From: Congregibacter litoralis KT71
GTDB lineage: Bacteria; Pseudomonadota; Gammaproteobacteria; Pseudomonadales; Halieaceae
Direction of reading: 5' to 3'
DNA length: 64,000 bases
Assembly (NCBI RefSeq): GCF_000153125.2
Contig: NZ_CM002299.1
Location: 2,864,928-2,928,927 of the forward strand
Positions 18,015-53,755 of this stretch are shown one piece after another. A program made the position numbers and the translations under genes. The notes below the pieces were generated by a model that saw only the letters and a program-made list of their open reading frames with translations, was not told the origin of the DNA and searched no databases. Position 1 is the first letter of the stretch; every line of letters begins with the position of its first letter.

Positions 18015-18587
18015 TCAGTCGGCGGCCTTGCTTTCAGCGGCCTCAGCGGCTGCTTCGTCCTTGGCCGCAGCATCCCCCTCTTTCTTTGCGTCGAGGTCGA
18101 GTAACTGTGACCGGATCAAGCCTTCAATCTCGCTGCCCAGAGCGGGGTTGTCTTCAAGGAACTTCGCCGCATTCGCCTTACCCTGACCGATCTTGTCGCC
18201 CTTGTAGGCGTACCAGGCACCGGACTTGTCGATAAGGTTCAGCTTCACACCCCAGTCGATGACCTCAGCGGTGCGGTAGATACCGCGGCCATACATGATC
18301 TGGAATTCCGCCTGTTTAAACGGTGGCGCCACCTTATTTTTAACGACCTTGACGCGGGTTTCATTACCCACCACCTCGTCACCTTCCTTGACCGCACCGA
18401 TACGACGGATGTCCAGGCGCACGGAAGAGTAAAACTTGAGCGCGTTACCGCCTGTGGTCGTTTCGGGCGAACCGAACATCACACCAATCTTCATGCGGAT
18501 CTGGTTAATAAAGATCACCAGGCAGTTCGTCTGCTTGATGGTCGCGGTGAGTTTGCGCATCGCCTGACTCAGGAGACGCGCCTGCAA
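18015..18587 (-). pseudogene. recA: Host recA, 3' half, cut by the integrative element
   Basis: This encodes the C-terminal part of RecA starting at [12 protein letters not shown] and running through loop-L2 region [23 protein letters not shown], the C-terminal domain and an acidic/Ala-rich tail ending AESKAAD. Only the Walker-A half is missing; that half lies at 53756-54246. Joining the two at the TGCAAT repeat gives an uninterrupted frame [14 protein letters not shown], the normal gammaproteobacterial sequence. A GTG at 18602 is in frame but has no ribosome-binding site and would yield only a fragment without ATP-binding motifs. Base composition matches the GC-rich host. Confidence 0.97.
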
Positions 18588-18602
18588 TTTCTTACTTGTC
18601 AC
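18583..18602. other. attL: left junction core and inner arm
   Basis: TGCAAT (18583-18588) is the last shared sequence with recA; the next bases TTCTTACTTGTCAC belong to the element. On the right end the mirror-image arm GCAAGAA stands before TGCAAT. The joined form GCAAGAA-TGCAAT-TTCTTAC is an inverted repeat around a 6-bp spacer, as expected for a tyrosine-recombinase core site. Confidence 0.85.
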
Positions 18603-18608
18603 AAAAAC

Positions 18609-18708
18609 TATCAGATAGAACGCAATAAATACTTTTCCTTTAAAATCAATATCATATAATAGATAAACCCTCTATAAACACCCAATTTATTATCAGAGAC
18701 TATCAGAT
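18609..18708. repeat. TATCAGA repeats in the left end of the element
   Basis: TATCAGA occurs three times in 100 bp (18609-18615, 18691-18697, 18701-18707); the outer two are within the longer direct repeat ACTATCAGAT (18607-18616 and 18699-18708). They lie just inside the attL core and could be recombinase arm or accessory sites. Confidence 0.45.
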
Positions 18709-18818
18709 GAATAAGGTTTCCAAATTCCAACGGCGTATAGATCGCAGTGTAATCCCCCCATAAATCCGGAACGGTTATTCGTAGAAAATTCTTCTAATAT
18801 GAAACGAAGGAGTTTTCT

Positions 18819-19085
18819 ATGCGCAAATCGAGATACAGCGATAGCCAGATAGTGGCGATCTTGAAGCAGAATGAGAACGGCGTAGCCGTTCCAGAGCTTT
18901 GCCGCGAGCACGGTATGAGTTCTGCGCAGTTTTACAAATGGCGTTCCAAATACGGTGGCATGGACGCGTCCATGATGAAGCGCCTCAAGGAGTTAGAGGA
19001 CGAGAATCGACGCCTTAAAAAGATGTATGCCGAAGAGCGGCTCAAGGCTGAGATTCGCCAGGAGGCACTCGAGGGAAAGCTGTAA
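18819..19085 (+). CDS. IS3-family transposase OrfA (copy A)
   Basis: An 88-residue helix-turn-helix protein: RKSRYSDSQIVAILKQNENG, LCREHGMSSAQFYKWRSKYGG and a C-terminal Leu-zipper-like segment ([24 protein letters not shown]). It binds the IS ends and is normally fused to OrfB by programmed frameshifting. Close relative of the OrfA in copy B at 38342-38608. Confidence 0.9.
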   Translation: MRKSRYSDSQIVAILKQNENGVAVPELCREHGMSSAQFYKWRSKYGGMDASMMKRLKELEDENRRLKKMYAEERLKAEIRQEALEGKL

Positions 19086-19105
19086 CGCCATCTCAGCGTC
19101 GTGAG

Positions 19106-19903
19106 ATGGCGATCGCCGCGAGAGATCGGTACGGCGTCAGTGTTCGGTTTGTCTGCCAATGCTTGGACATCAGCGTGGCGACCTATTACTACCGTCCCAA
19201 ACTGTCTATTGAAAATCAGCGCATCGCGGATTGGTTGTTAAGGCTGACAATGACAAATAAGCGATGGGGTTTTGGGTTGTGTTACCTGTACCTTCGCAAC
19301 GTGAAGGGGTTTGGCTGGAACCACAAAAGGGTCTATCGCATTTATCATGAGCTCGAATTGAACCTCAGGATAAAGCCAAAACGACGGATCAAGCGCGACA
19401 AGCCTGACGCATTATCTGTGCCGGTTGCGCCCAACCAAGTGTGGTCGATCGATTTTATGAGCGATGCGCTGAGTGACGGAAGGCTGCTTCGCACATTCAA
19501 CGTGTTGGATGACTACAACAGGGAGGGTTTGGGGATCGAGGTCGACCAATCGCTCCCCAGTAGTCGAGTCATTCGTAGTTTGAGCCAGATAATCGAATGG
19601 CGCGGGAAGCCGAGCGCGATTCGCCTAGACAATGGGCCGGAATACATCGCGCAAGCGTTGATTGATTGGGCGAACAAACGTCAGATTACCTTGATGTATA
19701 TTCAGCCTGGAAAGCCAACCCAGAATGCCTACATCGAGCGGTTCAACCGTACGGTCCGTCATGAATGGTTGGATATGCACCTGTTTGAATCGATTGAGCA
19801 AGCACAGGCGCTGGCTACTGAGTGGCTTTGGAGGTACAACAATGAGCGGCCCAACTCGGCGATAGGAGGCGTGCCTCCACGACAGCTGCTGCAAGCGGCT
19901 TAA
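19106..19903 (+). CDS. IS3-family transposase OrfB, DDE integrase core (copy A)
   Basis: A 265-residue catalytic subunit. After an HTH_21-like segment ([33 protein letters not shown]) the retroviral-integrase fold carries Asp in VWSIDFMSDA, Asp in IRLDNGPEY and Glu in [15 protein letters not shown]. It appears complete, so the IS may be active. The start used is the first good ATG; OrfAB fusion is expected for translation in this family. Confidence 0.9.
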   Translation: MAIAARDRYGVSVRFVCQCLDISVATYYYRPKLSIENQRIADWLLRLTMTNKRWGFGLCYLYLRNVKGFGWNHKRVYRIYHELELNLRIKPKRRIKRDKPDALSVPVAPNQVWSIDFMSDALSDGRLLRTFNVLDDYNREGLGIEVDQSLPSSRVIRSLSQIIEWRGKPSAIRLDNGPEYIAQALIDWANKRQITLMYIQPGKPTQNAYIERFNRTVRHEWLDMHLFESIEQAQALATEWLWRYNNERPNSAIGGVPPRQLLQAA

Positions 19904-19942
19904 ACTCTACGAACAACTGTTTCGGGGAATGGGGGGATTACA

Positions 19943-20671
19943 GACACGCACGGCGTGAATCACGTGAACTTTGCGTTGCTCGACCTCTTTGACTATACCT
20001 TCGCGCCGCGCTACGCCCAGGTCGGGCGGGTCATTGAGGGTATGTTCACGGTCAACGTCAGTGATGACGATAAGCCCTTGTTGTCTCTAAAAAAGTCGAT
20101 CCGCGAGGACGCCATTGTGCAGGAATGGGAGACGATCCAACGCATCGTCATCTCGCTTCAGCGGAAAACCACGTCACAAGCAGCACTGATCCGGAAACTA
20201 TCCACGTACAGCAATACACACCCGCTCGTGCAGGCTCTGACGGAGTATGACCGCTTGATCAAGGCCCGCTATCTACTGAACTACATCGACGATTCGGCCT
20301 TGCGCAACTATGTACAACGGGCGCTGAACCGGGGAGAAACCTATCATCAGCTGCGAAGAGCGGTCGCCTCGGTCAACGGGAATCGCTTCCGCGGCTCCTC
20401 GGACCAGGAAATCGACATCTGGAATGAGTGCGCCCGGCTGCTGACGAACGCGATTATCTACTTCAACTCACTCATACTGAGCAAATTATTAGTGTACTAC
20501 CGGAGCACCGGGGAGCAGGAAAGCTTGGAACTGGTGAAAAGAGTGTCTCCTGTGGCCTGGCTGAATGTAAATCTCAATGGCACTTACAGCTTCACGTTTG
20601 AGCAAAACGTGATCAATATGGCGGAGATTCTCAGCCCGCTGACCGGTAAAGTGAGGGAACTCGAAAAGTAG
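19943..20671 (+). pseudogene. tnpA: Tn3-family transposase, 3' fragment
   Basis: The frame opens exactly at the IS copy A boundary with DTHGVNHVNFALLDLF and continues FAPRYAQVGRVIEG, YLLNYIDDSALRNYVQRALNRGETYHQLRRAVASVNGN and DIWNECARLLTNAIIYFN, all hallmarks of the C-terminal quarter of Tn3-family transposases. About 240 of the usual roughly 1000 residues remain, so it is inactive. It shows that a Tn3-type transposon once lay here and lost its left part, probably with the arrival of the IS. Confidence 0.9.
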
Positions 20672-20999
20672 CCCCCCTTTGAAAGCCTTGCCAGGCGCGC
20701 GCTTCAGGGCGAAGTGAAAATTGCGGCGGGGATGTCTCTAGTACCCCATATAGTGGCAGACCATCGGCTAAAATCTGGGTCTATCGGCCTCGTATCCCGT
20801 AGATTCGGACATTGGCAGAGCCCAGAGCTGGCAACGTCACTTGGACACGCAGTCTCCCGGTCTCATTGGGCATTGTCGATGTATTGCGTGGGCGCATCAG
20901 CAATTTTTCTGCGATCTCTTCGCGAGAATAAAACTCTACACTGTCAATTGAGCTGAAGGCGCGCTACAAATCGGCGAAAAGGAAGAAAGTTTTGGCTGA
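20672..20999. other. Intergenic, no gene seen
   Basis: 328 bp between the transposase remnant and the convergent methyltransferase gene. Possible reading frames here are short and have no family features. The Tn3 terminal inverted repeat that should lie here was not recognised with certainty. Confidence 0.5.
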
Positions 21000-21806
21000 C
21001 TAGAAACTTAGAGCCATTATCAGAATTTTAAATGACTTAAGGCACCTGAACGGGAATCTGCACCGGCTCATGTACAGAAGCCTAAACGGTACAAACCGGC
21101 ACCCAATCTTGGCGCCACCTTTTCCGACTGATAGTGGATGCTTGTCAGCACGCGCCCCCTCATAAACGTGGAGTTGGTGCTTTGACGGGAAGTCGTCAGA
21201 AGAAAAAACTCTCACATCACTGAAGTAAGGTGCCATGCGTTCAATGTAGTCCAGACCTGGCTCGTGCATCAGCCGGGTGCTAGGGTCTCTTTGGGCTAAA
21301 TCTTTGGTTTGCTCGTGAATAATTGGTATGGGTAGGATAGCGATACCGTCCGGTCTCAATATGCGACGAATTTCTTTGATCGCCCGAACGTCGTCGTCTG
21401 GATATTCAAGAACATGCGACGCGAACACCAAATCGAAACTCTCGTCTTCAAACGGTATGTCCTGGATGTCGAATCGGTGATCAACATCCCTACGGTTTAA
21501 GTCGGCTGACACATAGTTTCCGAATGTCTGATCGAGCTGTTTTCGGAGGGCATTCTCAGGTGCAACGTGAAGAACCGATTGATGGTCGCAGACACGATTG
21601 CTGAGAAGGAGTTGAAGCACCAGCGCCTGCAGTCTGACCCGCTCCGCCTCGCCACACTTTGGACACTTTGCGTGCAACCGCTGATGCTTTTTTAGAAAGG
21701 GCCCGCTAAATCCGCACACTGGGCATTCAAAAAACTGTTGCTTTCGATGCCATATGCGATAGAGGGGGGCTCGAAGCCCTTTCAATCGATACTCCAACGT
21801 CTTCAA
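21000..21806 (-). CDS. Zinc-ribbon SAM-dependent methyltransferase
   Basis: A 268-residue protein. The N-terminus holds two Cys pairs (ECPVCGFSG and KCPKCGEAER) forming a likely zinc ribbon. A class I methyltransferase fold follows: VLHVAPENALRK, YVSADLNRR, DIQDIPFEDESFDLVFASHVLEYPDDD, EIRRILRPDGIAILPIP (Methyltransf_11 pattern). The extreme C-terminus (about residues 245-268) is hydrophobic and basic and may be an altered tail. It is the last gene of the minus-strand envelope cluster. A sugar or polysaccharide substrate is inferred from its neighbours. Confidence 0.75.
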   Translation of the reverse strand: MKTLEYRLKGLRAPLYRIWHRKQQFFECPVCGFSGPFLKKHQRLHAKCPKCGEAERVRLQALVLQLLLSNRVCDHQSVLHVAPENALRKQLDQTFGNYVSADLNRRDVDHRFDIQDIPFEDESFDLVFASHVLEYPDDDVRAIKEIRRILRPDGIAILPIPIIHEQTKDLAQRDPSTRLMHEPGLDYIERMAPYFSDVRVFSSDDFPSKHQLHVYEGARADKHPLSVGKGGAKIGCRFVPFRLLYMSRCRFPFRCLKSFKILIMALSF

Positions 21807-21892
21807 GGAAGCGCCTGCTCAATCTGGGGTAAAAGAGGCACCAGCGCTACGCCGTCCATCCATAACGGTGTGGACCAAACTGACCTAATCGT

Positions 21893-22765
21893 TCACTCAG
21901 CTTCTGCTGGTACTTGTTTCCAACGTCGATTAGACCAAAGATATGTATGCGGCTGCTCGCGGATACTACGTTCGGCATGTGCTACAAACTCTCTCACAAT
22001 CTGATCTTCTTCGTTGAGGGCACGCGTAACGCCCATTTCTATAAACTCGATCTGGTACTGGGTTGCACCAACTGTCGAGCATTGGGCAAAAACGACAGGA
22101 GTGTTTAATGCTCCCGATATCTTCTGCGCGCCTCGGTAGAAAGCTGCTGGTCGGTGCATAAATGTCGTCCAGTAGCCTTGTTGCGTGTTTCCGGCTTGGT
22201 CAGCGATTAGTCCTACTAAGCGCGGTTCCCTCCTTCTTTGGAGTAGGTTGCGACCAACGTCTTTCATAGCAATAGGGCTGGCGCCAAAGCGCGAGCGGGT
22301 TCGAAGCAGATACTTGTCCCAAAAGGCGCTGTGCAGAGGCTTGTATACCGGGTCAATCCTCACCGGCAGATGAATTGAGCTGGCAAGTGACACCCACTCC
22401 CAGTTTCCCTGATGAATAAGTAACACCACAGCTTGTTTACTAAAATCATCAGTAACTTTAGCGAGAAGCTCCGGATTCTTGATCAATACACGCTGTCGCA
22501 AGTAGCCGCTGGGCAGAAATCGAGCGACGGCCACCTGAACGGCAATGTTCGCTAAGAATCGATAAAACTTCTTCGATAACTCGCGCCGCTCAGCATCATT
22601 AAGGTTTGGGAACGCGTGGCTCAGATTTTCGGAAACGAGATGAGTTCGGTATCTGCACAGACCATAAACAATCAGAAACGTTGACCAACCCGCTGCTCGC
22701 AGCACGGTGTCAAGTACGCGCCACAAAGTCGGTTGAAGCGAAGCTTTTGGGGACGTCATCGCCAC
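21893..22765 (-). CDS. Lipid A acyltransferase, LpxL/HtrB family
   Basis: A 290-residue inner-membrane acyltransferase of the late lipid A acyltransferase family, which adds a secondary acyl chain to Kdo2-lipid A. The catalytic H-x4-E motif is HQGNWE (about residues 138-143). Other conserved parts are IDPVYKPLHSAFWDKYLLRTRSRFGA, LIADQAGN and the end YLWSNRRWK. An N-terminal hydrophobic helix is seen (about residues 18-38). With MsbA, a WaaL-like ligase and glycosyltransferases nearby, it probably alters the acylation of lipid A or of a related glycolipid. Host copies presumably exist elsewhere. Confidence 0.88.
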   Translation of the reverse strand: MAMTSPKASLQPTLWRVLDTVLRAAGWSTFLIVYGLCRYRTHLVSENLSHAFPNLNDAERRELSKKFYRFLANIAVQVAVARFLPSGYLRQRVLIKNPELLAKVTDDFSKQAVVLLIHQGNWEWVSLASSIHLPVRIDPVYKPLHSAFWDKYLLRTRSRFGASPIAMKDVGRNLLQRRREPRLVGLIADQAGNTQQGYWTTFMHRPAAFYRGAQKISGALNTPVVFAQCSTVGATQYQIEFIEMGVTRALNEEDQIVREFVAHAERSIREQPHTYLWSNRRWKQVPAEAE

Positions 22766-22913
22766 GCGTGTCTTTTGGAATAACGTAGATGTTTCTCGCC
22801 CCTCAGATAGCCAATCGACCTATACACCACACCTTGCTTCACCCCCTCAGCTTGTTCGGTGCCCCACCCAAAAGAGGCAGATTTTGCTCGATAAGAAAAG
22901 TGGAATCTAAACA

Positions 22914-23645
22914 TCACAATTGAACTAAAGCCCTGATGGTTGGCTTGGTGTTTAACGCACATTTGATTCGACTAAACCCGTGTTGATTCAGTATTTTTTT
23001 GAGGTTCTGCTTGTTGAAATAGAAAAGATGTTCAGGAGGCCTGATAGAGTCCCACTCTATGATGGGTGTACGTCGCATTGGCCAGCGTAGACTTGGATGA
23101 CCTAAATCTGGAGTCGTCAGTAGTAAAAGACTGTCTTTATGCATGAGCGACCTCACTTCTGTGAGGAAGCCTTCGAGTGACGGTAGGTGCTCTATTACTT
23201 CGCTGCAGTAGATGAAGTCGTAAGTTTCACCGCGCGCAAACTCTTCTACGCCGGCGCATTCAAAATTTGCATCAGGAAAGTTCTTTTGGGCCTCTGCAAT
23301 GGCCGCCGCATCGATATCTATTCCGGTGGCACTAAATCCTAGAGTGTGGGCGGCTGCTACCGCAAAGCCTGCGTTACACCCTACGTCGAGAAATGAACCA
23401 CCGATGCGACTACCCGCCATTCTTCGAATCCGTCGCCTTGCTCTACGAATCTTCGAGTTTAGCTTCGCCGTGTACTGATGGGTCTTATGATACCGGTAGT
23501 AGAATTTAGCCAGTTCATCCGTCGAGGGTGTTGGATGCACAAATACAAGTTCGCAGTCGCTGCACTTTTTGAGATCAAAGCCGTTTTTACGGCCAAAGTC
23601 TAACCACGTTTGTGAATCGCAAACTGCACAAGAACTTGTTTTCAC
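22914..23645 (-). CDS. Class I SAM methyltransferase with N-terminal Cys motif
   Basis: A 243-residue protein beginning CAVCDSQTWL and KKCSDCELVFVHPTPSTDELAKFYY, a zinc-binding start common in methyltransferases of polysaccharide clusters. The Rossmann fold has GGSFLDVGCNAGFAVAAA (motif I), GIDIDAAAIAEA, TYDFIYCSEVIEHLPSLEGFL and LLLLTTPDLGHPS. Methylation of a sugar during surface-glycan synthesis is inferred from context. It is separated from the GT25 gene by 18 bp, in the same direction. Confidence 0.8.
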   Translation of the reverse strand: MKTSSCAVCDSQTWLDFGRKNGFDLKKCSDCELVFVHPTPSTDELAKFYYRYHKTHQYTAKLNSKIRRARRRIRRMAGSRIGGSFLDVGCNAGFAVAAAHTLGFSATGIDIDAAAIAEAQKNFPDANFECAGVEEFARGETYDFIYCSEVIEHLPSLEGFLTEVRSLMHKDSLLLLTTPDLGHPSLRWPMRRTPIIEWDSIRPPEHLFYFNKQNLKKILNQHGFSRIKCALNTKPTIRALVQL

Positions 23646-23663
23646 CGAACAACGCTTCCTAAA

Positions 23664-24488
23664 TTAATCACGTGATCTATGAGTATCGTGGCCCCAAAAA
23701 GGCCGCCACCAGAGACGCTCCAATACCACTCGCCTAACGTTTTGTTGCAGTCTCTGCAATCGATACATCAATGTGCGCTGCTTACTAGTTCGACTCACTA
23801 TCCGCTCGGCTTCCATCGTAGAGCGGATAGAGGCGCCTTGCCAAACCACAAACGGGTCTACACCCGCCAATTCCAAGTTTGAGCGACCTCTGTACGCAAT
23901 CCAATCATCGGCCATCAAGGAAACGGGTGTATTCAATTCCGCTAACACCGCCGCCGCCGCCCTGTTTAAAGCATAACCAGCACCGTCCCAGGCGCGAGTG
24001 ACTTGTACCCTTTGAACTCTATTGGTTAATGGCACACCAGACTTTCTCAGGAAACCTCGCAGGGGAGTAAGCAGAAGCAAGCGAGGATGAGTATCGGTCA
24101 ACCATGGATCTGCGGCCGCAAGAACGGCAGCCGCATCGGTATCGAGCTTTGCATCATCCTCAAGGACTAGCGTCCAAGGATCGGAAGAGTCTAGCAAGTC
24201 GTGGTACGCGGCTCGATGACTCAATGAGCAACCAATCTCACCTCGGGTCATCCGCCGCCCGCTTCGATTTAGGATTTCTTGGACACTAGTGTTCCTTAGT
24301 AAATCGTCGTCGGGAAGTAGTTTTCCATCGACAGCCTCTACTAGTGAAACTCTAAAGCCCCCCGCCGCCTCAAGATCGCCCAAAATACGAGTGCGACGCG
24401 TGGCCTCGCTTCTCAAGTTTATGACCCGCGCTGGGACTCGTTCGCAGTGATGGGTCCTTTGAAGTTTGGCTGGCTCTACAATGCTCAC
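23664..24488 (-). CDS. Glycosyltransferase family 25 (LOS/LPS type)
   Basis: A 274-residue transferase. The family 25 pattern is clear: RVINLRSEATRRTRILGDLEA, VEAVDGKLL, LTRGEIGCSLSHRAAYHDLL and the metal-binding WTLVLEDDAKLD. Members add galactose or related sugars to lipooligosaccharide cores. The acceptor here is not known. The start overlaps the stop of the upstream ligase gene by 4 bases (24485-24488), so the two are translationally coupled. Confidence 0.88.
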   Translation of the reverse strand: MSIVEPAKLQRTHHCERVPARVINLRSEATRRTRILGDLEAAGGFRVSLVEAVDGKLLPDDDLLRNTSVQEILNRSGRRMTRGEIGCSLSHRAAYHDLLDSSDPWTLVLEDDAKLDTDAAAVLAAADPWLTDTHPRLLLLTPLRGFLRKSGVPLTNRVQRVQVTRAWDGAGYALNRAAAAVLAELNTPVSLMADDWIAYRGRSNLELAGVDPFVVWQGASIRSTMEAERIVSRTSKQRTLMYRLQRLQQNVRRVVLERLWWRPFWGHDTHRSRD

Positions 24489-25720: not shown

Positions 25721-25765
25721 TTTTCCCTCAGTGTGTGGCGACCAACAGGCTCAAAACAAATTTTC

Positions 25766-27802: not shown

Positions 27803-27831
27803 TTGAGTATCGCGTGCTCTGCTACAGCAGA

Positions 27832-28671: not shown

Positions 28672-28803
28672 GATTGAGTGAGACTTTAGTTGACTAGACC
28701 TTTCTTTAGAGGGAGGCTGTGGAAAAAATCTGTCGCGCTTCGTCTGTTTTTTTTTCAATATCGCAACAGAAAATGGCCTCGCACTCCCTCTGACTTCTTA
28801 ACC

Positions 28804-38321: not shown

Positions 38322-38341
38322 CTCGCGACGCGCGGATGGCC

Positions 38342-40451: not shown

Positions 40452-40481
40452 ATCAATTATCAGATTTTAATAGCTCTATTT

Positions 40482-41385: not shown

Positions 41386-41509
41386 GCGCTTTCCACTGTA
41401 CTGTATTACACGTGATGCATTACGGTATTCCGCATGTCAATACATGCTTGGCCGATCTATTGATCCAGATTAGACATGCACATCGTCAAACGCAGGTTCT
41501 GGCAAGTAT

Positions 41510-41728: not shown

Positions 41729-41906
41729 ATCGCAAGAGGACTGCAGCTGGATATTTGGCCGCCTATTTGCTCCGCTCGCCGACATAGATGATTCGTGAGC
41801 AACAGCACACCTCAACCGTTTAAAACTTCCACACATTCCAACTTTAGTGCGTTTCACTGACCTTTCCCCCAAGTTAAAACCAATACGTGGATGAGATCTC
41901 CAGAAT

Positions 41907-42982: not shown

Positions 42983-43023
42983 CGTGAAATCTCCATGGTG
43001 CTAGGTTAGCTGGAAATCTCATC

Positions 43024-45408: not shown

Positions 45409-45412
45409 CTCA

Positions 45413-47416
45413 ATGAAGTCGGCCAACCAGAACGCCTTTGACGATATTGCCTCCCAGTTTGGCCCGCTCCCAATTACGCGCGGAAAAACATCCGATCTGA
45501 AGGCCGACTGGCTGCTCTCTGACTTTCAAAGCAACACTTGGACTGTGGCTCGTGGGGCAGATAAAAGCAAAACAAAATCTTTCTATTGGGATGTACCGTT
45601 ATACAACGGAGAAAGGCTCGGCGAAAAAAAGTATGCAGATCTTCTAACTCTAACAAAAAAAATTGTGTTTTCTTGCAGGTCAGGCGCGCTTGGAACTCAC
45701 AGCGGCTCTACCGAAACGACGCGCACCAAACACCAATATTCCATATATTCGAGTTTACTCGTGCTGATTCGGCGACTTGTAATGCAGGGCTGCGAACCAG
45801 ATCGAACCGGCTTCAAAACAATTGACCCTGAATTTCTTCGAGAACTTGCAAAGAGCGCCTTAAGAGGGAGGCCTTTTTCCGACGGTACCTATGAAGCGAT
45901 TAAAGAACTTTTGGAATGCGCTAAGGCAAACAATTGTTTGCACTCGTTTATACATCAGGGGACAGGAGAGCTCGATTTTGGATCGATATTCAGAGAGCTA
46001 GGAGAGCCGTCATCTAACGGTTCATTTTCTGTAAGACTGCGAGCAGCGCTGAACGATTATGAAAGCTGCTCGATGCCAAAGCATATTGACCAGAAGTACT
46101 CTGCTGGCAGGGAGTACCCCTCAACGCGGTCTACAAGGACCGAAGAGCTACTCGAAACTCCGGTTAGCGTCAGTACATTAATGGGGATTTTCTCAAGCCT
46201 GAGAACGCTCGGCATACTGGCCGAAAATTGGCAAGAGCTCAACGGCCTAGAGTGGTGCAGGTCATTCAATGTTACAGAGCTAGCATATGATCTTGGATTC
46301 ACACCCAAAAACCGCACGCCCACGATTCCGGTAGACATTGCTCTCCACTACCTAGACAGTGCAATTTTTTGGGTAGTAGAAATTGGCCCAGAGCTACTCG
46401 AGCTTAAGAAAAAGTACGACAAGAGGCTACGTCACGTGATGAGTAAAGTGACCAAAAAAAAGGATGAAGCTGCAAGGACAATACAGATCGATTTACCCAT
46501 TGAGCTTAAGGAAAAGTTGGCAACAAGAAACATCGATATAGTCCGGTACAATAGATATTCCTCCGGCACTACTCACCGCAAGATTCGTGAAGACATGACT
46601 TTGGAAGATGCGGTTTCTTGCCTTATAGCGGCGGCATTTATTTTAGTATCAACTTTCAGTTGCAAACGAATTTCGGAGGTTTTAGCGCTTAGTGAGGAAG
46701 CCATACGCCCATCGCTCGATGGAGGCTGGGAGCTTGTATTTGGCTTAAAGAAGTCCAGCCCTTCCGAGAACCTACGAAAGGTTGGCAGGCCGGTCCCTGA
46801 CATCGTAGAGAAAGCCTGCGGGCTACTCGTTGACCTTTATCCGGCGTGCATTGACTTACCCGAAAGCACTTCAAGTAAACCAATTTTTTTAAACGACTAT
46901 GCCGAAAGTCTAAAGAGCCGAGCCCCGAGATTCGCAAGTGAACACACAATGTATCACCATCTTGAATTATATGCGGATGTAGAACAAATCCCTTTAAACG
47001 ACCGCGGAGAAAGATGGTATCTACGCAGCCACGAACTACGGCGTTTTTTTGCCATCACTTATTTTTGGCATGATCGATTCGCCGGCCTTTCCGCGCTTTC
47101 GTGGCTTATGGGGCATTCCAGTACCGAAGAAACAATGAGGTATGTCGTGGAAGAAATCGCAGGGGCCGAACTTCCTGAAGAGGAAGCACGGCTTACAGCT
47201 TCCGCCCTGACAGACACAACAAATTCATTCCCAATTGATGGTCTCGAAGTTTTGGCCGAAGACGCTAAAGAATATTTCAAAGTAGATGACCTCCGAGTAA
47301 TTAACATCGACATTCTTGAGAGCTACCTTGAAAACAGATATCAAGAGGGCTATCGGATCGTAAAGCATGGATATAAGCATGCCAAAGTCGTTTATCTGGA
47401 AGAACACAATGACTAA
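45413..47416 (+). CDS. Large tyrosine recombinase (second gene of module)
   Basis: A 667-residue site-specific recombinase. The first 400 residues are family-specific. The catalytic domain has Arg419 in SCKRISEVLAL, Lys446/447 in GLKKSS, His540 and Arg543 in SHELRRFFAI, His568 in LMGHSSTEETM and the nucleophile Tyr577 in MRYVVEE, so all catalytic positions are present. Size and setting recall TnpB of Tn554-type transposons, where two tyrosine recombinases and a small helper work together. It overlaps the next gene by 8 bases. Confidence 0.85.
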   Translation: MKSANQNAFDDIASQFGPLPITRGKTSDLKADWLLSDFQSNTWTVARGADKSKTKSFYWDVPLYNGERLGEKKYADLLTLTKKIVFSCRSGALGTHSGSTETTRTKHQYSIYSSLLVLIRRLVMQGCEPDRTGFKTIDPEFLRELAKSALRGRPFSDGTYEAIKELLECAKANNCLHSFIHQGTGELDFGSIFRELGEPSSNGSFSVRLRAALNDYESCSMPKHIDQKYSAGREYPSTRSTRTEELLETPVSVSTLMGIFSSLRTLGILAENWQELNGLEWCRSFNVTELAYDLGFTPKNRTPTIPVDIALHYLDSAIFWVVEIGPELLELKKKYDKRLRHVMSKVTKKKDEAARTIQIDLPIELKEKLATRNIDIVRYNRYSSGTTHRKIREDMTLEDAVSCLIAAAFILVSTFSCKRISEVLALSEEAIRPSLDGGWELVFGLKKSSPSENLRKVGRPVPDIVEKACGLLVDLYPACIDLPESTSSKPIFLNDYAESLKSRAPRFASEHTMYHHLELYADVEQIPLNDRGERWYLRSHELRRFFAITYFWHDRFAGLSALSWLMGHSSTEETMRYVVEEIAGAELPEEEARLTASALTDTTNSFPIDGLEVLAEDAKEYFKVDDLRVINIDILESYLENRYQEGYRIVKHGYKHAKVVYLEEHND

Positions 47417-47933
47417 ATCTATAGGTGCGCAGCGATGGCATTTGGCTGAGAAAAGTTTAAGGGCGCGGATCACATATCTTCAGGGGGCTATCGATTCTGG
47501 GCAACTTCCGGCTGCATTCGAGCTACATAAGTCCAATAAAACCTTAATGGATTGGCACGATGCAGATCTCGGAATATATAAGATAGGCGTCAACACTGCG
47601 AGAGACTCGCATCCTGATGCGTGGAGTACCCTGCAGGACTTAAGACTGCAAATAAAAGCAATTGTGACAAACGAAGCAAACAGCACCACTGACAGCCAGC
47701 TGAAAGGAAAGAGCAAAAAAAGCGAGTCAAAAACAGCCAGAGCGAATTCCGCCTGCCCAAACTGTCAGACCTTAACGGATGAACTCGTCGCACTTCGCTT
47801 GGCGTACCTAGAGCTCCGAGACCACTTAAGTGCAAAGCAGAAAAAAGGCCAACAACTGCAGAACGCGATACGCAGACACGCAAAAGATCACGGACTAAAA
47901 GCCATCATTGGCACTGGGAAAGTCTCTAAGTGA
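47409..47933 (+). CDS. Small helper-like protein of the recombinase module
   Basis: A 174-residue basic protein without catalytic motifs. The N-terminal half (TKSIGAQRWHLAEKSLRARI, LMDWHDADLGIYKIGVNTARD) may bind DNA; the C-terminal part holds CPNCQTLTDELVALRLAYLELRDHL and a probable coiled coil. By place and size it resembles TnpC of Tn554-type modules; homology cannot be claimed by eye. The ATG at 47409 overlaps the previous stop, and its stop overlaps the next start (GTGA), so the operon is translationally coupled throughout. Confidence 0.6.
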   Translation: MTKSIGAQRWHLAEKSLRARITYLQGAIDSGQLPAAFELHKSNKTLMDWHDADLGIYKIGVNTARDSHPDAWSTLQDLRLQIKAIVTNEANSTTDSQLKGKSKKSESKTARANSACPNCQTLTDELVALRLAYLELRDHLSAKQKKGQQLQNAIRRHAKDHGLKAIIGTGKVSK

Positions 47934-49001
47934 ACACGAGCCAAAAAGTCCGCAAATCGAGCGTTGATTGCAGCCTGAGCTTTAGATATCCACACGAACC
48001 AAGTAAAGCGAGAGACTACTCAGGACTTCCCCTCATCATGCACAGCGACGGCACAGTGTGTTGGGAAGCTACCGACTACTTACTGTTCTATCATTTCGAA
48101 AACCCAAGCGGAACGAAGAGCACTCTAGAAAAATACGCCAGACAACTATCTCGAATAGTAGCGTTCCTCGAATATTCGTCGCGTTGGTTCGACGACATAA
48201 CGGATGATGACCTATTCGATCTCCCTAGTTTTCTCCAAGATTCGAAAAATTCGGGTTCTGGACAGGCATCAGATAATAACCAGGTCAACGAAATTTTAAC
48301 CAGGCTTTTGAAAGTGCTGGTGGATCTATCTGCACGAGGCTATATCGATGCGGATAAAATTAGCTTTAACCCAATGGTGAGAGCTGACGTCAATATTGAG
48401 ATGCGAGCCTTCGTACCTAAAGGAAGCAAAGTCAAACGCGAGTATTACTACCACCCTGCGAGATTGAGCACCAAGAATGCGCAAAAACGCCGGCCAATTT
48501 CAGACGCAGCACTTAACACCCTTCACTCTAAAATATACGAATTTACTGAGAATCGTTTTACCCGGGTTAGATGGGCCAACTTACTGCAAGCACTTGAGTT
48601 AACTGGGGCACGGGTAAGCGAAGTAGCAAAAATTCACGTGGTAGACGTTAAGCGTTGTCTAAATGAAATTGAGTATGAAAAGCAACCAAGGTTGAAGTTA
48701 ACAACGACCAAAGGTAAGAACGCGGGAAAGTCGCGATTAGTGCCTGTCCCAATAGAGTTCGTTAAAGAGCTTGGCGACTACTTAAAATATTATCGCAATC
48801 CAATCCTTAAAAAAAACGGCATAGATCATGATTATCTATTTGTCACTACGCGAGGAAACCGGTTACGAGCAAAAAGAATCAGCGACCATTTTAGAGAGGT
48901 AAGATGTTTTGCTGGACTAAGAAAGTCAGACGCCTCCCCCCACCTCTGCCGCAACAGATTTATTACCCTGCACGTCAAGGAGAGGCTTGCGTCACTTAAG
49001 G
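47930..49001 (+). pseudogene. Tyrosine recombinase (fourth gene), 5' part, cut by IS66-family element
   Basis: Residues 1-357 of an originally 459-residue integrase. Present are box I Arg228 in LTGARVSEVA, the beta-strand Lys in TTTKGKNAGKSRLVPVP and His338-x-x-Arg341 in PHLCRNRFI. The frame then runs into the IS (GNRPVITP, stop at 49027), so GH and Tyr are missing. They lie in the 3' part at 51528-51835. GTG start overlaps the helper gene by 4 bases. The protein most likely catalysed integration or excision of the element together with its operon partners. Confidence 0.85.
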
Positions 49002-49016
49002 GTAACCGTCCGGTAA

Positions 49017-50639
49017 TCACACCTTGATCGACGAACTCCAGTTGTGCGGTAGCAAAGTATCGATGTCGGAGTACATGAGGGTCGGCAACCGCTCAAGCAC
49101 ATCGTGCAGGTAGGCCTGCGGATCGATACCGTTGATCTTCGCCGACTGGATCAGCGACATGACGTTGGCGGCGCGCTGACCACTGCGCAGTGAACCTGCG
49201 AACAACCAGTTCTTTCTTCCCAGCGCCCAGGGCCGAACCTGATTCTCAATCCAGTTGTTGTCGATCGGCACCGCGCCATCATCGAGATAGCGCGTGAGCG
49301 CCTCCCAGCGTTTCAGGCTGTAGTCCATGGCCTTCGTCGTCCGTGTTCCGTCGGTAAGCCCGCTGCGCTGATGAACCAGCCACTTGCGTAAGTGTTCGAT
49401 GATCGGCCGTGATAGCGATTCTCGAACGCGCTGTCGCTCATCCGGTGGTTTTTCCTGGATATCTCGCTCGACCTCGTAGAGCTTGCCGATGATAACAAGC
49501 GCTTGGTCGGCAATGGGGCTGTTCCCACGCTCGGCAAGCTCAAAGAACTTCCGCCGCGCATGCGCCCAGCAACCCACCTCCGTAAGCCCCTTGGCGAAGC
49601 CGGCCTTGTAGCCACTGTAGTCGTCGCAGACCAGCTGGCCCTGCCAGTCTTCCAGGAAGTCGCGGCAGGCTTTGCCGGACCGCGTGGGCTGGAAGTCGTA
49701 GACCACCGCCTGTCGCTCATCGGTACGTGGGGTTGCGTAGGCCCAGATATACGCCCGGTGTGTCTTCTTATTGCCCGGCGAGAGCATGGGTACTGGCGTT
49801 TCATCAGCGTGGAGAACGGCATGGCCTAACAGACAGCTGCGCAGCCGGTCCACGAGCGGCGTGAGCTCTACCCCGCAGCGCCCCACCCAGTCCGCCAGCG
49901 TGGATCGCGGCAGCTCCACGCCCGCCCGGGCATAGATCTGCTCCTGGCGGTATAACGGTAAGTGATCCGCATACTTGCTGATCAGGACCTGAGCTAGCAG
50001 GTTGGTCGTGGGGATGCCCTTCTCGATGATGTGCGGCGCTACGGGCGCCTGCACGACCGTCTCACACGCCTTGCACGCCCACTTGCTGCGGATGTGCCGC
50101 TCTACCGAGAAGGAGCCGGGTTCGTAATCGAGCTTCTCGCTCACGTCTTCACCGATGCGCGTGAGCTTGCAACCGCAGCCACAGGTCGTGGAGTCGGGGT
50201 CGTGGTGGATCTCTGTGCGGGGTAGCTGCGGCGGCAGCGGCTGGCGCCGTGGCTTTGAGCGCTGACGCTCTTTCGCGACGGGTGGTTCAAGCATCTCAAG
50301 CTCGTTCTCAATGGCGGCGAGGTCCTCGTCCACCAGGTCGCTCAGTAAACTCTGCTGTGGGCTCTTGCCTTGCTCGCTTCGCTTGCCAAAGCGATGCCGT
50401 CGGAGAATGGCGATCTCATGCGTGAGGCGCTCCTTCTCAATGGTCAGTCGCTGGATGGCAGCGTCGCGCTCCTGCAGCTGAGTGTCTCGCTCGACCTCTA
50501 GCTGCTGTATCGCGGTGTCGCGCTCGTGCAGCTGAGCGTCCCGCTCAGTCTGTAGTTGCTGGATGGTTGACTGCATCTGCGCCGCGAGCTGGCGCACTTC
50601 GGACTCGCTGAGCTTAGTAATATCGACCGCGGAAGGCAT
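49017..50639 (-). CDS. tnpC: IS66-family transposase TnpC
   Basis: A 540-residue transposase. An N-terminal coiled coil with short repeats (LQTERDAQLHERDTAIQQ) leads to the zinc-finger-like CGCGCKLTRIGEDVSEKLDYEPG, WACKACETVVQAP and the DDE core: HADETPVPML, LVCDDYSGYKAG, VGCWAHARRKF and NNWIENQVRPWALGRKNWLFAGS. The ATG at 50639 (MPSAVDITKLSES) follows family practice. Appears intact. Confidence 0.93.
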   Translation of the reverse strand: MPSAVDITKLSESEVRQLAAQMQSTIQQLQTERDAQLHERDTAIQQLEVERDTQLQERDAAIQRLTIEKERLTHEIAILRRHRFGKRSEQGKSPQQSLLSDLVDEDLAAIENELEMLEPPVAKERQRSKPRRQPLPPQLPRTEIHHDPDSTTCGCGCKLTRIGEDVSEKLDYEPGSFSVERHIRSKWACKACETVVQAPVAPHIIEKGIPTTNLLAQVLISKYADHLPLYRQEQIYARAGVELPRSTLADWVGRCGVELTPLVDRLRSCLLGHAVLHADETPVPMLSPGNKKTHRAYIWAYATPRTDERQAVVYDFQPTRSGKACRDFLEDWQGQLVCDDYSGYKAGFAKGLTEVGCWAHARRKFFELAERGNSPIADQALVIIGKLYEVERDIQEKPPDERQRVRESLSRPIIEHLRKWLVHQRSGLTDGTRTTKAMDYSLKRWEALTRYLDDGAVPIDNNWIENQVRPWALGRKNWLFAGSLRSGQRAANVMSLIQSAKINGIDPQAYLHDVLERLPTLMYSDIDTLLPHNWSSSIKV

Positions 50640-50718
50640 GGGGACACTCTGCCATCGGCTTTCGCCGATGGCCAGAAGCACTAATTCCGTAGATCGAAAC
50701 GCCCGTGTGTGGTGTTAT

Positions 50719-51081
50719 CTACTGCCGGTCGATAACAAAGTCAGCACCGGCATATTGCCAGGGCAATCCCGAGGCCAGCGCCTGCAGTTGCAGCTCATCC
50801 AAGGCCACCGGTTCGCCGCTGCGCAGAGCACTCCAGACAAAGCGACCGCGGTGCAACCGACGCGCTAGCAGCCAGACTCCGAAGCCATCACAGATCAGTA
50901 TCTTCATGCGGTTAGCGCGCTTGTTCGCGAAGACATAGGCGCAGTGCGGCTTCGCCGCACCGAAAGCCTCAACCACCCGGGCCAGGGTAGTCTCGGGACC
51001 GCAGCGCATGTCGAGGGGCTCTCGAGAGAGCCAGATCTCGTCGATGCGCAAGAACGGGCCTGTGCTGGCGTGGTGGTTCAT
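50719..51081 (-). CDS. tnpB: IS66 accessory protein TnpB
   Basis: A 120-residue protein of the IS66 Orf2 family: RIDEIWLSREPLDMRCGPETTLARVVEAFGA, CAYVFANKRANRMKILICDGFGVWLLARRL. Needed for IS66 transposition, role unclear. The start ATG overlaps the tnpA stop (ATGA). Confidence 0.92.
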   Translation of the reverse strand: MNHHASTGPFLRIDEIWLSREPLDMRCGPETTLARVVEAFGAAKPHCAYVFANKRANRMKILICDGFGVWLLARRLHRGRFVWSALRSGEPVALDELQLQALASGLPWQYAGADFVIDRQ

Positions 51082-51437
51082 CGTGTGAGGGCACGCAGCC
51101 ATGTGACCGACTGCGGCATCTCCGATAACGGCCAGTGTACGACGAGCGTGCCTTTGGGCGTGGGGACGTCTATCCTGACGATCGTGGGCGATGTCTCAAC
51201 TACTGGACCCGGTGCCGGCAGTTGCACGAAACCGCTGGGTGCCAATATGTTGTGTGTCCTGCGCCAATTGTGCACCAGGTTAGGGTTGAGGCCGTGGCTG
51301 ACGGCGACGCCCGCGACTGAGGCTCCGGGTTGCTCACACTCGCGAAGCACCTGTTCCTTGAACTCAGGCGGGTAGCGCCGGCGGCGCTGCTTGATGGGTG
51401 CGGAAGTGAGATCAGAGGAAGGTGCTTGCTCGTCCAT
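51078..51437 (-). CDS. tnpA: IS66 accessory protein TnpA
   Basis: A 119-residue helix-turn-helix protein: RRRYPPEFKEQVLRECEQPGASVAGVAVSHGLNPNLVHNWRR. Typical first gene of IS66-family elements. Confidence 0.9.
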   Translation of the reverse strand: MDEQAPSSDLTSAPIKQRRRRYPPEFKEQVLRECEQPGASVAGVAVSHGLNPNLVHNWRRTHNILAPSGFVQLPAPGPVVETSPTIVRIDVPTPKGTLVVHWPLSEMPQSVTWLRALTR

Positions 51438-51527
51438 GCTAAGTGTCCACTAAGAATAGGTGGACACCTAAACTAGTGACTCCCGCGCAGCAGGCAAGAT
51501 GGGATTACCGGACGTTTACACTTAAGG

Positions 51528-51835
51528 AGAGTCAAGGCCATTACGGGATGAATTTAGAAGAGTTCATTGTGAAGAAGGTGAAAATTTTGACCGGGCACGT
51601 GTCTGACTCAGCACTTTGGGTATACGTAGATGACGCTATACATGAGCTCGACGTATTCAAAAATTCCGAAACTAAGCTACAACAAAACTCCAATCTCAGA
51701 ACCCGAGAACGCAAACTTCATTCATTAATTGCTCAAGCTAACTTCGCTGTATCGGATCGATCCAAGGCAGAGATACTCGACCAAATCATAGAACTTTCTA
51801 GGGGTGTTGATTTGCACCTAAAAGTTACCCAATAG
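51528..51835 (+). pseudogene. Tyrosine recombinase (fourth gene), 3' part
   Basis: Removing the IS66-family element and one ACTTAAGG joins ...ERLASLK to ESQGHYGMNLEEFIVKKV in frame. This part provides KILTGHVSDSALWVYVDD with His381 and Tyr390, nine residues apart as in tyrosine recombinases, and a C-terminal tail of about 70 residues ending LKVTQ. Without its 5' part it cannot be active. The frame can be followed upstream into the IS, but that start is spurious. Confidence 0.85.
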
Positions 51836-52014: not shown

Positions 52015-52500
52015 CTAGAATTTGTCAATGAAGTGTTCTATGCAGAACCCTCGATATTGCATGAAACGACTACGTCTAGCCTTTTCCTTGGCATCACCTG
52101 CCGGAGTGTTGCCGTACTTTTTTTTGAGCACAATCGACGCACTTGAACTCCAGTCGTAACCAGCTGACTCCATCGCCATTTGAACATCTTCGTCTGGAAC
52201 CCCCCTCTGCCTCATTTCCTGACGAACTCGCAAGGGACCATGACCTCGGTTATAGCGTTGCCGGACAAAGCTTTCCGCATAACGAGCATCAGACTGCAAA
52301 CCTTCCTCAGTCAGTCGGTCTAATTGCTCGCTAACGACACCGTGATCATCAAAACGCTTCTTAAGTTTTTGTTCTAGCTCTTTTCTCGAATGTTCGCGTC
52401 TGGCCAGTAGGTTTACGGCGGCCAGACGAATATCGTGTGGTTTAGTGTTCGCTAGCTCAGAAGAGTCGCTAACGTTATCGTAGAGCAGAAATTCAGACAT
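52015..52500 (-). CDS. recX: RecX, element-borne copy
   Basis: A 161-residue RecX: RLAAVNLLARREHSRKELEQKLKKRF, LTEEGLQSDARYAESFVRQRYNRGHGPLRVRQEMRQRGV and RRSRFMQYRGF. It differs clearly from the host RecX at 17312-17776 and has lower GC. It follows the element recA with a hairpin between, repeating the host recA-recX layout. Probably modulates the element RecA. Confidence 0.93.
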   Translation of the reverse strand: MSEFLLYDNVSDSSELANTKPHDIRLAAVNLLARREHSRKELEQKLKKRFDDHGVVSEQLDRLTEEGLQSDARYAESFVRQRYNRGHGPLRVRQEMRQRGVPDEDVQMAMESAGYDWSSSASIVLKKKYGNTPAGDAKEKARRSRFMQYRGFCIEHFIDKF

Positions 52501-52512
52501 AGGTGAAAAGAG

Positions 52513-52555
52513 AGGCGCCGGGGCAAAGAATGGGATAAGGGGAGCCCCGGCGCCT
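52513..52555 (-). terminator. Hairpin between element recA and recX
   Basis: AGGCGCCGGGGC and GCCCCGGCGCCT make a perfect 12-bp GC-rich stem with a 19-base loop; on the minus strand it is followed by TCTCTTTT. Likely a partial terminator that limits RecX, in the same place as the hairpin of the host pair but unrelated in sequence. Confidence 0.7.
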
Positions 52556-52594
52556 CATGAGAAGTGCTATGTAACCCTTATATATAGATCACTA

Positions 52595-53638
52595 TCACGC
52601 TTGCTTAGCATCGGTTTCTTCGGCATCCATCTCTGGCGCTTCAGGCTTGGCAATATTTAGGGTTTCAGCACGGATGGCACTTTCGATTTCACTGGTCACA
52701 TCAGGATTGGCTTCCAGAAACTTAGCTGCATTAGCCTTACCCTGGCCAATTTTATCGCCGTTATAGGCGTACCATGCGCCTGACTTTTCAACCAAGTTTA
52801 GCTTCACGCCCCAGTCAATAATCTCTGCCATACGGTAAATACCTGCACCATACATGATTTGAAATTCCGCTTGCTTGAACGGGGGGGCAACTTTGTTCTT
52901 GACCACCTTGACACGTGTTTCGTTACCAATCACCTCGTCGCCTTCTTTAACTGCACCGATACGGCGGATATCCAAACGAACAGATGAATAAAACTTTAGA
53001 GCGTTACCACCAGTCGTGGTTTCGGGCGAGCCAAACATCACACCGATTTTCATACGGATCTGATTGATGAATATGACAAGCACGTTGTTATTCTTGATAT
53101 TGCCAGTCAACTTTCGCATTGCTTGACTCATCATCCGGGCAGCAAGACCAACGTGGGAATCTCCGATGTCACCTTCAATTTCCGCTTTGGGTACTAGAGC
53201 AGCTACCGAATCGATAATCACGACGTCAACGGCGCCAGAGCGGGTGAGCATGTCACAGATTTCTAACGCCTGTTCACCAGTGTCAGGCTGAGAGACGATC
53301 AGTTCATCAATATTCACTCCCAGCTTTTCGGCATACTTCGGATCAAGTGCGTGCTCAGCGTCAATAAACGCACAGGTTTTTCCGTCCCGCTGCGCCTGAG
53401 CGATTACGCTAAGTGTAAGTGTCGTCTTTCCTGAAGATTCAGGACCGTAGATTTCACAGATGCGGCCATAAGGTAATCCGCCGATTCCAAGCGCAACGTC
53501 CAAACCAAGCGATCCTGTAGAAACATTCTCGATATCCATGGCGGCCCGATCACCCATCTTCATGATGGAACCTTTGCCGAACTGGCGTTCAATCTGGCTT
53601 AGCGCCGCTTCTAGTGCCTTTCCTTTATTAGCATCCAT
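52595..53638 (-). CDS. recA: Full-length RecA, element-borne replacement copy
   Basis: A complete 347-residue recombinase: Walker [26 protein letters not shown], Walker [30 protein letters not shown], loop L2 region [21 protein letters not shown] and the C-terminal domain with acidic tail. By hand alignment about 78% of the first 164 residues match the broken host RecA. At the spot where the host copy was cut this gene reads GLAARMM with different codons, so the TGCAAT target is absent. It starts 84 bases behind the stop of the truncated host frame and has no evident LexA box of its own. It is presumably the cell's only working recA unless another exists outside the window. Confidence 0.97.
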
Positions 53639-53695
53639 GATTTGAGTCTCTTCAATAAGTCAGTTTTGGGTCGGGAGGGGTTTAAGAGTCAAACA

Positions 53696-53722
53696 AGACT
53701 GCGGGATTCTATCCGACAGTCT
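53696..53722. repeat. 12-bp imperfect inverted repeat inside the right end
   Basis: AGACTGCGGGAT - TCT - ATCCGACAGTCT, arms matching at 10 of 12 positions with a 3-base centre. It lies 28 bp inside the attR core and 58 bp upstream of the element recA. Could bind a recombinase or directionality factor, or act as an operator for recA. Confidence 0.55.
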
Positions 53723-53740
53723 CAAGCAGCCAAGGGCAAC

Positions 53741-53755
53741 ACGCAAGAATGCAAT
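53741..53755. other. attR: right junction core and inner arm
   Basis: Element arm GCAAGAA is followed by TGCAAT (53750-53755), after which host recA sequence (CCCACGTGCG) begins. Together with attL it gives attP core GCAAGAA-TGCAAT-TTCTTAC and attB CGCC-TGCAAT-CCCACG within recA. Confidence 0.85.

Follow-up and report, generated by a model that had tools for sequence, protein, structure and literature searches.

A probable recA mobile element carrying a recA–recX pair in the split recA of Congregibacter litoralis KT71

The host recA gene of Congregibacter litoralis KT71 lies in two separated halves within the window, the 64,000-bp stretch of DNA analyzed here. The features at the two break points are as follows.

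17312..17776, minus strand: host recX, still adjoining the recA 3′ half
18015..18588, minus strand: host recA, 3′ half, beginning with the core and ending at the stop codon
18583..18588, minus strand: 6-bp core ATTGCA at the recA 3′-half junction
53722..54246, minus strand: host recA, 5′ half, 165 codons followed by 9 foreign codons and a stop
53750..53755, minus strand: 6-bp core ATTGCA at the recA 5′-half junction

The 5′ half ends in GDSHVGL and runs on into the foreign residues HSCVLPLAA before its stop, while the 3′ half resumes at QARLLSQ. The ATTGCA common to both junctions represents bases 492–497 of the host recA ORF, and the arms of the element beside the two cores form an imperfect inverted repeat (TTCTTGCGTG / TTCTTACTTG, 8/10, by eye). 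The halves are separated by ~35,167 bp of DNA, most of it lower in GC: GC is ~0.46–0.56 across most of the element and 0.61 over an IS66-family insertion, against ~0.54–0.63 outside. A PF00154 profile search of the whole genome, which is one 4,351,117-bp contig, gave four matches. One full RecA (profile 1–261), the 5′ part (1–164), and the 3′ part (158–261) are all in the window, and the fourth is a weak match elsewhere, below the cut-off. These parts and the shared core bear out the sequence-only reading of a host recA split by some 35 kb of foreign DNA. Same-genus genomes show the empty site: in 3/3 of those fetched (L007, L008, and L009) a single unbroken recA matches both host halves, and the outer flanks of the island are collinear with L041, a 15-kb stretch spanning the L007 site. 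The two halves were thus once adjacent, and the data do not support a misjoin of two chromosomal recA loci.

Inside the 5′-half junction, the element carries a recA and a recX of its own.

52595..53638, minus strand: element recA, complete (RecA of 347 aa), on the same strand as the truncated host recA, whose stop lies 83 bp before it
52015..52500, minus strand: element recX, 47% identity to host RecX over 140 aa

The element recX lies downstream of the element recA, and both ORFs are open and full length, with the RecA aligning along its whole length with solved RecA structures. In the tree, the element RecA is not part of the clade formed by the RecAs of the host's family; it groups with six metagenome or database RecAs with support of 100/100. 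GC3 is 0.48 in the element recA and 0.70–0.72 in the host recA halves. A full-length, diverged recA with its own recX is therefore present at the right end, as first read. Site-specific insertion into recA with the pair as the likely compensation also stood up, with the element recA–recX as a predicted functional replacement. The element recA has GGTCTTGCTGCC where the target reads GGATTGCAGGCG, and with the target sequence absent it would not itself be a target. A separate protein of 500 aa, P0012, has the appearance of a host–element RecA fusion; its internal repeat reads like misassembly, and it was set aside.

The signals around the two recA genes bear on how the incoming pair would be expressed.

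54325..54340, minus strand: LexA-box-like sequence with one mismatch to CTGT-N8-ACAG, ~80 bp upstream of the host recA start

This is the only LexA-box-like site with at most one mismatch near recA, with none of that quality found between 43823 and 54325; in the window, matches of this sort occur no more often than chance predicts. No terminator-like site was found between the truncated recA and the element recA. A weak promoter-like match sits just upstream of the element recA (53733–53706), and upstream of the junction, within the 5′ half of host recA, there is a terminator-like match (53966–53953). Each is of a kind no commoner than in shuffles, and either one, if real, would weaken the case for promoter capture.

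The rest of the element consists of a recombinase module and a long cargo region.

18589..43590, no strand: cargo side
43591..45408, plus strand: m1, recombinase-module protein, 605 aa, a homolog of the first module gene in the relatives
45413..47416, plus strand: m2, large tyrosine-recombinase-like protein, 667 aa
47367..47933, plus strand: m3, small module protein, 188 aa, assigned from its size and position
47930..49001, plus strand: m4, tyrosine recombinase (PF00589), 5′ part up to the IS66-family insertion that interrupts it
49002..51519, minus strand: IS66-family element inside m4
51528..51835, plus strand: m4, 3′ part containing the GH...Y region, on the far side of the IS66-family element and inside ORF 51443–51835

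The module order is large protein, large recombinase, small protein, ordinary recombinase. No Pfam or NCBIfam match was found for m1, whose predicted structure has a mean pLDDT of 45 and was set aside, and m3 had no match in the comparison with the relatives' modules. NCBIfam includes Gmt models; the modules tested gave no match above cut-off and none to a Gmt model, and a search for GmtY/GmtZ literature found nothing relevant. The IS66-family element is flanked by the 8-bp repeat ACTTAAGG (48994–49001 and 51520–51527, by eye). Because it breaks the fourth recombinase gene, the island is probably stranded, and self-movement is not expected.

Genes m1–m4 (43591–51835) adjoin the element recX–recA, with 25 kb of cargo on the other side, an arrangement suggesting that the island may be composite. 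The cargo includes IS3-type transposase ORFs, a Tn3-transposase fragment, an ABC transporter, a HipA-like pair, and a KfrA-like gene, as well as genes named by reading as glycosyltransferase-, acyltransferase-, and O-antigen-ligase-like, sigma/anti-sigma, and TonB-receptor-like; Pfam supports only the Tn3, KfrA, HipA, and ABC transporter names.

The kind of element is not new. Elements inserted at the same position in recA have been published as recA mobile elements (RMEs) from Vibrio cholerae and Vibrio parahaemolyticus (PMC4405046, PMC4334540), so a recA-targeting element with a recA of its own is already described, and it is the recA–recX pair that does look new. The 32,787-bp RME of V. cholerae S24 is inserted 494 bp into recA, with a complete diverged recA at one end, its own LexA box at that recA, an integrase at the far end, tyrosine recombinases, short terminal inverted repeats, and cargo including umuDC and a MutL-domain gene; it is reported to excise as a circle and enter a recA target on a vector, and its recA is reported to be functional (PMC4405046). 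In VpRME of V. parahaemolyticus 090-96, recA is broken at nt 491, the overlap being 6 bp and the core TCTCCA; a truncated recA ORF of 525 bp is followed 176 bp later by a complete recA on the same strand, and four module genes antisense to recA adjoin the recA 3′ half (PMC4334540). Their sizes, computed from the Table 3 coordinates, are 650-674-243-435 aa (PMC4334540). The pair looks new because recX is absent from the VpRME gene list in Table 3 (PMC4334540) and, in the part of the V. cholerae account available, is named only as a host gene (PMC4405046).

In both Vibrio RMEs, as in the KT71 element, the insertion is at the same position in recA, and the truncated 5′ half is accompanied by a complete diverged recA. 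The short inverted arms and 6-bp overlap in KT71 are RME features too, and VpRME has the same four-gene order, similar gene sizes, the same length of overlap, and a promoter-proximal recA. The differences are that the KT71 module lies next to recA, while in both published Vibrio RMEs it is at the opposite end, and that the LexA box before the element recA of the V. cholerae RME is missing in KT71; the first is a matter of layout and the second is seen in one RME, and neither is taken as defining. The KT71 element also carries recX, which the available Vibrio descriptions do not list in an element, and it belongs to another gammaproteobacterial lineage. Since no Vibrio RME sequence was among the matches in any collection searched, the module link to these elements (KJ123688 for V. 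cholerae, JFFP01000036 for V. parahaemolyticus) consists of gene order and sizes.

Other tyrosine-recombinase elements are organized differently. SE-6283/Tn6283 and other strand-biased circularizing integrative elements have four core genes (two tyrosine recombinases, a related protein, and a small protein) in the order intA-tfp-intB-srap and a 6-bp footprint; Tn6283 disrupts bcp, carries a bcp-like peroxidase, and is compared with RME by its authors (PMC10214605, PMC5991714, PMC9345347). The four genes and the footprint are common to the KT71 element, while the gene order differs, and the one SE-like operon compared, from L057, shows clear similarity with m4 only. GInts resemble the KT71 element in combining three integrase-type proteins and one small protein (ginABCD) with a cargo island and proposed 6-nt staggered cuts, and the available text of the GInt paper makes no mention of recA (PMC5385486). 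Their operon is at the 5′ end, in an order other than that of the KT71 module. Tn554, whose target is radC, has the order tnpA-tnpB-tnpC, whereas the KT71 module has four genes in another order. For Tn554, three genes and a 6-bp footprint are described, with no replacement target gene in the available account (PMC10214605).

Distant relatives of the module are located at umuD, radC, rarA, comM, topB, and ligA. Among these distant relatives, the module does not always go with a recA–recX pair: they occupy other DNA-metabolism genes. At ligA, the host gene is split and a complete diverged copy accompanies the module in the layout found at recA, with the extent of the island putative; at topB, there is likewise a split host gene with a complete diverged copy and the module, in a partly resolved layout. 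Both appear to use the same trick. A second member is represented by an element-like RecA (P0014, 94%) and an m2 relative (P0002, 70%): both are listed with an NCBI contig 5,088 bp long, probably a single one. The close m2 alignment A1 had no match in genome_contigs or viral_contigs. A scan of the host's family found 1/140 genomes, the window's own; the G365 family gave 2/15, both already known, and the G142 family 0/2. An order-wide search for split recA drew on 390 genomes, setting aside at least 11 weak-match genomes and 11 without a match. Ten with partial or doubled RecA matches, picked by eye, were examined, and no second recA–recX replacement island was found in them among the matches listed (G202 undecided); the partial or doubled matches were read as contig ends, adjacent frameshift-like breaks, and doubled genes. 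A literature search for islands replacing an essential target gene, ligA, or topB found nothing relevant by title, in results that were partly crowded by irrelevant terms such as "ligand" and carry correspondingly little weight, with bioRxiv preprints outside the scope.

It is highly probable that the 35-kb island is an RME-type island that captured the host recA promoter and was later immobilized by the IS66-family insertion. A circular form would have recombined an ATTGCA-centered site with the same core in the host recA. The host recA promoter would have driven the incoming recA–recX from then on, so that recombination and SOS control would have been exchanged at once for a foreign pair. 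The later insertion in m4 would then have left the island immobile by itself.

The main competing account concerns the extent of this island. Two tandem islands, a small RME (~43.4–53.75 kb) and an unrelated one of 25 kb separating m1 from the recA 3′ half, would be in keeping with the relatives at radC, topB, and ligA, where m1 starts within ~140 bp of the target-gene fragment rather than 25 kb away, and a second island beside the first is reported in V. parahaemolyticus TJ125 (PMC7820670). No second core with arms was found upstream of m1; GAAATTGCAGG, an 11-bp match spanning the core near 43.1 kb, is on the opposite strand and without an arm (BLAST E 0.87). This arrangement is possible but unlikely. 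Convergence is less probable still: an unrelated recombinase system of another lineage would have hit the same recA site and captured recA–recX independently, giving an RME-like island. No Vibrio is among the named m2 relatives (most database matches are nameless), alignment A1 found nothing in the two contig collections, and the module position is unlike that of the Vibrio RMEs, all of which would fit; against it are the same recA position, four-gene order, similar sizes, 6-bp overlap, and promoter-proximal recA.

Decay of the element recA, leaving a recombination-deficient strain, seems very improbable. The island does have IS elements and a broken recombinase, and the function of its recA is a prediction, but the open, full-length recA and recX and the alignment of the RecA with solved proteins speak against loss. 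For an assembly artefact or a plain recA duplication no point was found in favor, and both were rejected as next to impossible given a single-contig genome in which one full recA is accompanied by two complementary halves, the collinear empty sites in sister genomes, and the precise core at both junctions.

Reading the island as an RME with promoter capture extends the recA mobile element beyond Vibrio, with recA–recX exchanged as a unit. We read the recA, ligA, and topB cases as a class of gene-replacement islands. The balance tips modestly toward a lineage of four-gene tyrosine-recombinase islands that targets the interior of replication, repair, and recombination genes, some members carrying a complete foreign copy (recA–recX, ligA, topB), at recA and ligA just behind the host promoter. 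If so, each replacement insertion would be a one-step exchange of a core informational gene for a foreign one, and mobile elements would offer a route by which genes considered difficult to transfer could move horizontally. Together with the ligA and topB cases, this suggests a general way to swap core DNA-metabolism genes, including essential ones. It would bear on recA-based trees, sequence typing, and informational-gene transfer, and on how an element becomes hard to lose, with loss being safe only through precise excision.

Matches to the RecA family PF00154 in the single 4,351,117-bp contig of Congregibacter litoralis KT71 comprise a complete RecA, two partial ones (5' and 3'), and a single weak match at a distance. 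The two parts are the halves of a host recA split by about 35 kb of foreign DNA, as the sequence-only reading had proposed. The 5' half ends in GDSHVGL followed by nine foreign codons and a stop, and host coding restarts at QARLLSQ in the 3' half. The core ATTGCA, bases 492–497 of the host recA ORF, is present at both junctions, and the insert with one core copy measures 35,167 bp. The element-side arms TTCTTGCGTG / TTCTTACTTG, compared by eye, repeat each other in inverted orientation around the core at 8 of 10 positions. The features are as follows.

18583–18588, core ATTGCA at the 3'-half junction
m1, plus strand, 605 aa
m2, plus strand, 667 aa
m3, plus strand, 188 aa
m4, plus strand, tyrosine recombinase with a PF00589 match, split by an IS66-family element
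49002–51519, the IS66-family element inside m4, with the 8-bp repeat ACTTAAGG on each side
52015–52500, minus strand, element recX, after element recA
52595–53638, minus strand, element recA, its start 83 bp past the stop codon of truncated host recA and on the same strand
53722–54246, minus strand, ORF of the host recA 5' half
53750–53755, core ATTGCA at the 5'-half junction

Both host halves match an uninterrupted, single recA in all three same-genus genomes fetched (L007, L008, and L009), and the flanks outside the halves are collinear in the 15 kb around the L007 site (L041). The halves were therefore contiguous before insertion, and the empty site sought among relatives exists.

The complete, diverged recA with its own recX that was claimed for the insert is also borne out. 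Element RecA can be aligned over almost its whole length with RecA proteins of solved structure and is 94%, 90%, and 89% identical to the database proteins P0014, P0015, and P0016. In a 55-row tree, these three, element RecA, P0034, P0052, and P0058 form one clade (100/100) that falls outside that of the host's family; the rows are an unbalanced sample of the RecA loci at hand, and same-genus genomes stand in for the host's own halves. The host 5' and 3' halves are 96% and 91% identical to L007. GC3 is 0.48 in element recA versus 0.70 and 0.72 in the host halves, and the element and host RecX proteins share 47% identity over 140 aa. Element recA reads GGTCTTGCTGCC at the target position versus GGATTGCAGGCG in the host core region, so it should not itself serve as a target.

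The stretch 54325–54340, upstream of host recA, resembles a LexA box, and no such site with up to one mismatch lies in front of element recA; such matches occur at chance level across the window (16 versus 19.7 expected). Between the truncated host recA and element recA there is one weak promoter-like site and no terminator-like site was found; one terminator-like site falls within the host 5' half, upstream of the junction. Because no terminator-like site separates the genes and none of the promoter- or terminator-like sites near recA rises above shuffles, element recA is likely transcribed from the host promoter.

The ORF at 51443–51835, downstream of the IS66-family element, contains the GH...Y region missing from m4 and matches the C-terminal part of two of five m4 relatives (phmmer; best 6e-8, L037). 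The island has probably lost its self-mobility. At least ten other m2 relatives (E <= 1e-3) occur among the 7,995 best candidates scored in the protein database, and a search of 139 further genomes from the host's family found none; the relative in Agaribacterium sp. ZY112 is 41% identical. P0002 (m2, 70%) and P0014 (RecA) are each listed on an NCBI contig 5,088 bp long. Should the two be one and the same contig, it would represent a sister island with recA adjoining the module and no space for the IS66-family element.

The cargo at 21893–32482 is rich in glycosyltransferase-, acyltransferase-, O-antigen-ligase-, and ABC-transporter-like genes, with a sigma/anti-sigma pair, and is perhaps a surface-polysaccharide set. 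At 38818–40451, a HipA-like protein and a small helix-turn-helix-like partner, assigned by reading, are a possible toxin–antitoxin pair that could stabilize the island.

A recA-targeting element with its own recA is not new, since Vibrio islands carrying a complete recA are in print. The 32,787-bp island of V. cholerae S24, published in 2014, breaks recA at 494 of 1,065 bp, excises as a circle, enters recA on a vector, and is reported to protect UV-exposed E. coli (PMC4405046). The recA mobile element (RME) of V. parahaemolyticus 090-96 lies at recA nt 491, with an overlap of 6 bp. Table 3 of that paper runs from truncated RecA through complete RecA and the cargo to the four module genes, which are in the same order as here, followed by truncated RecA and host RecX (PMC4334540). 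A later strain has a 19.5-kb recA island with a second island adjoining (PMC7820670). In the literature searched, no recX inside a recA island and no RME outside Vibrio was found. Tn6283, a strand-biased circularizing integrative element (SE), disrupts bcp and encodes a bcp-like peroxidase (PMC5991714, PMC9345347). Module gene order differs from that of SEs, ginABCD islands (GInts), and Tn554, and only m4 matched one SE-like operon; the module is therefore kept out of these families.

Module relatives occur in eight of 390 genomes of the order (seven besides this one), at 12 loci in the genome_contigs set (one repeating an order match), and in two of 19 plasmid records, giving 20 distinct distant loci. 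Reading of neighbors assigned targets in 13.

umuD, seven loci (L034, L051–L055, and L057)
radC, one locus (L037)
topB, one locus (L038)
ligA, one locus (L039, the same as L061)
rarA, one locus (L058)
comM, one locus (L059)
remnant recognized by recA–recX duplication, one locus (L040)

NCBIfam models for RadC, UmuD (tested for L051 and L034), TopB, and the YifB/ComM family score over cut-off; the 104-aa rarA piece, named by reading, matches AAA-ATPase models below cut-off. All 13 targets, judged by eye and seven of them umuD, are DNA repair, recombination, replication, or competence genes, and targets at the seven loci left unassigned (L035, L036, L044, L045, L056, L060, and L062; full module not confirmed in L044 and L045) could fall outside these classes. 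Several of the umuD loci represent a single element in near-identical copies. All seven share the opening bases of umuD, which are therefore probably supplied by the element.

Complete copies also accompany ligA and topB. In G403, whose proteins match MAAL01000054 of Gammaproteobacteria bacterium 42_54_T18, smc (by reading) and zipA (NCBIfam) precede a 143-aa ligA 5' fragment, followed after 135 bp on the same strand by a diverged, complete 659-aa NAD-dependent DNA ligase. About 57 kb separate this ligase from the module, which runs in reverse and is followed by a 542-aa ligA 3' fragment, the same layout as in KT71 and V. parahaemolyticus. The fragments are complementary, covering residues 8–141 and 140–669 of the solved 671-residue DNA ligase 2owo. 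Adenylation, OB, HHH, and BRCT domains of the complete ligase exceed cut-offs and the zinc finger falls below; NCBIfam LigA models are its best matches, yet below cut-off (322 and 319 bits). The island's extent is only putative, because a group of flagellar genes, identified by reading, occupies part of the stretch between. In G237, the module is bordered at m1 by a topB 5' fragment and, after m4, by a complete topB; the 3' part of the host gene sits close to the beginning of a different contig. The host parts are 64% and 51–56% identical to the complete copy. Here m2 is broken, and the far end of the putative island is off the module's contig. No ligA or topB counterpart was found in literature searches that were not sharp for these two genes.

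Other arrangements were seen among the relatives. In G263 (L040 6648–12301 and L049 15133–16206), a complete recA–recX is followed by an in-frame fusion of a glyA 5' end with a truncated m2-like gene, then by m3- and m4-like genes and a second, short recX; a recA 3' part plus recX, 91.7% identical to the first copy, lies about 24 kb beyond. The arrangement resembles the remnant of an island that regenerated the 3' end of recA. In Serratia marcescens MSU97 (L057 14342–20582), umuD adjoins one module, and umuC, whose model matches residues 1–103, contains another operon (429-585-679-160 aa, in SE/GInt-like order); umuDC thus appears to be targeted by two kinds of element in nested fashion. G454 (91% complete, 5% contaminated) has two full-length RecA genes on different contigs (L093 and L103); given the contamination level, the doubling is possibly a contaminant's.

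At umuD, m2 is identical over its full length across Providencia, Colwellia, Neiella, Acinetobacter, and Thalassolituus (L034 and L051–L054), which reads as recent cross-genus spread. A class A beta-lactamase gene is annotated upstream of the module in L034, and apparently the same gene, by eye, is present in L051, L052, and L054; the L053 contig ends short of its position.

For the KT71 island, the structure, empty site, core, foreign recA–recX, and broken recombinase are observed, and its working can be proposed from them and the published V. cholerae case. By that analogy, the island would insert at the same recA site, with a circular form as intermediate, and element recA would be functional. 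The host recA promoter would take over element recA–recX, the altered core in element recA would make the island immune to itself, and the IS66-family element in m4 has probably stranded it.
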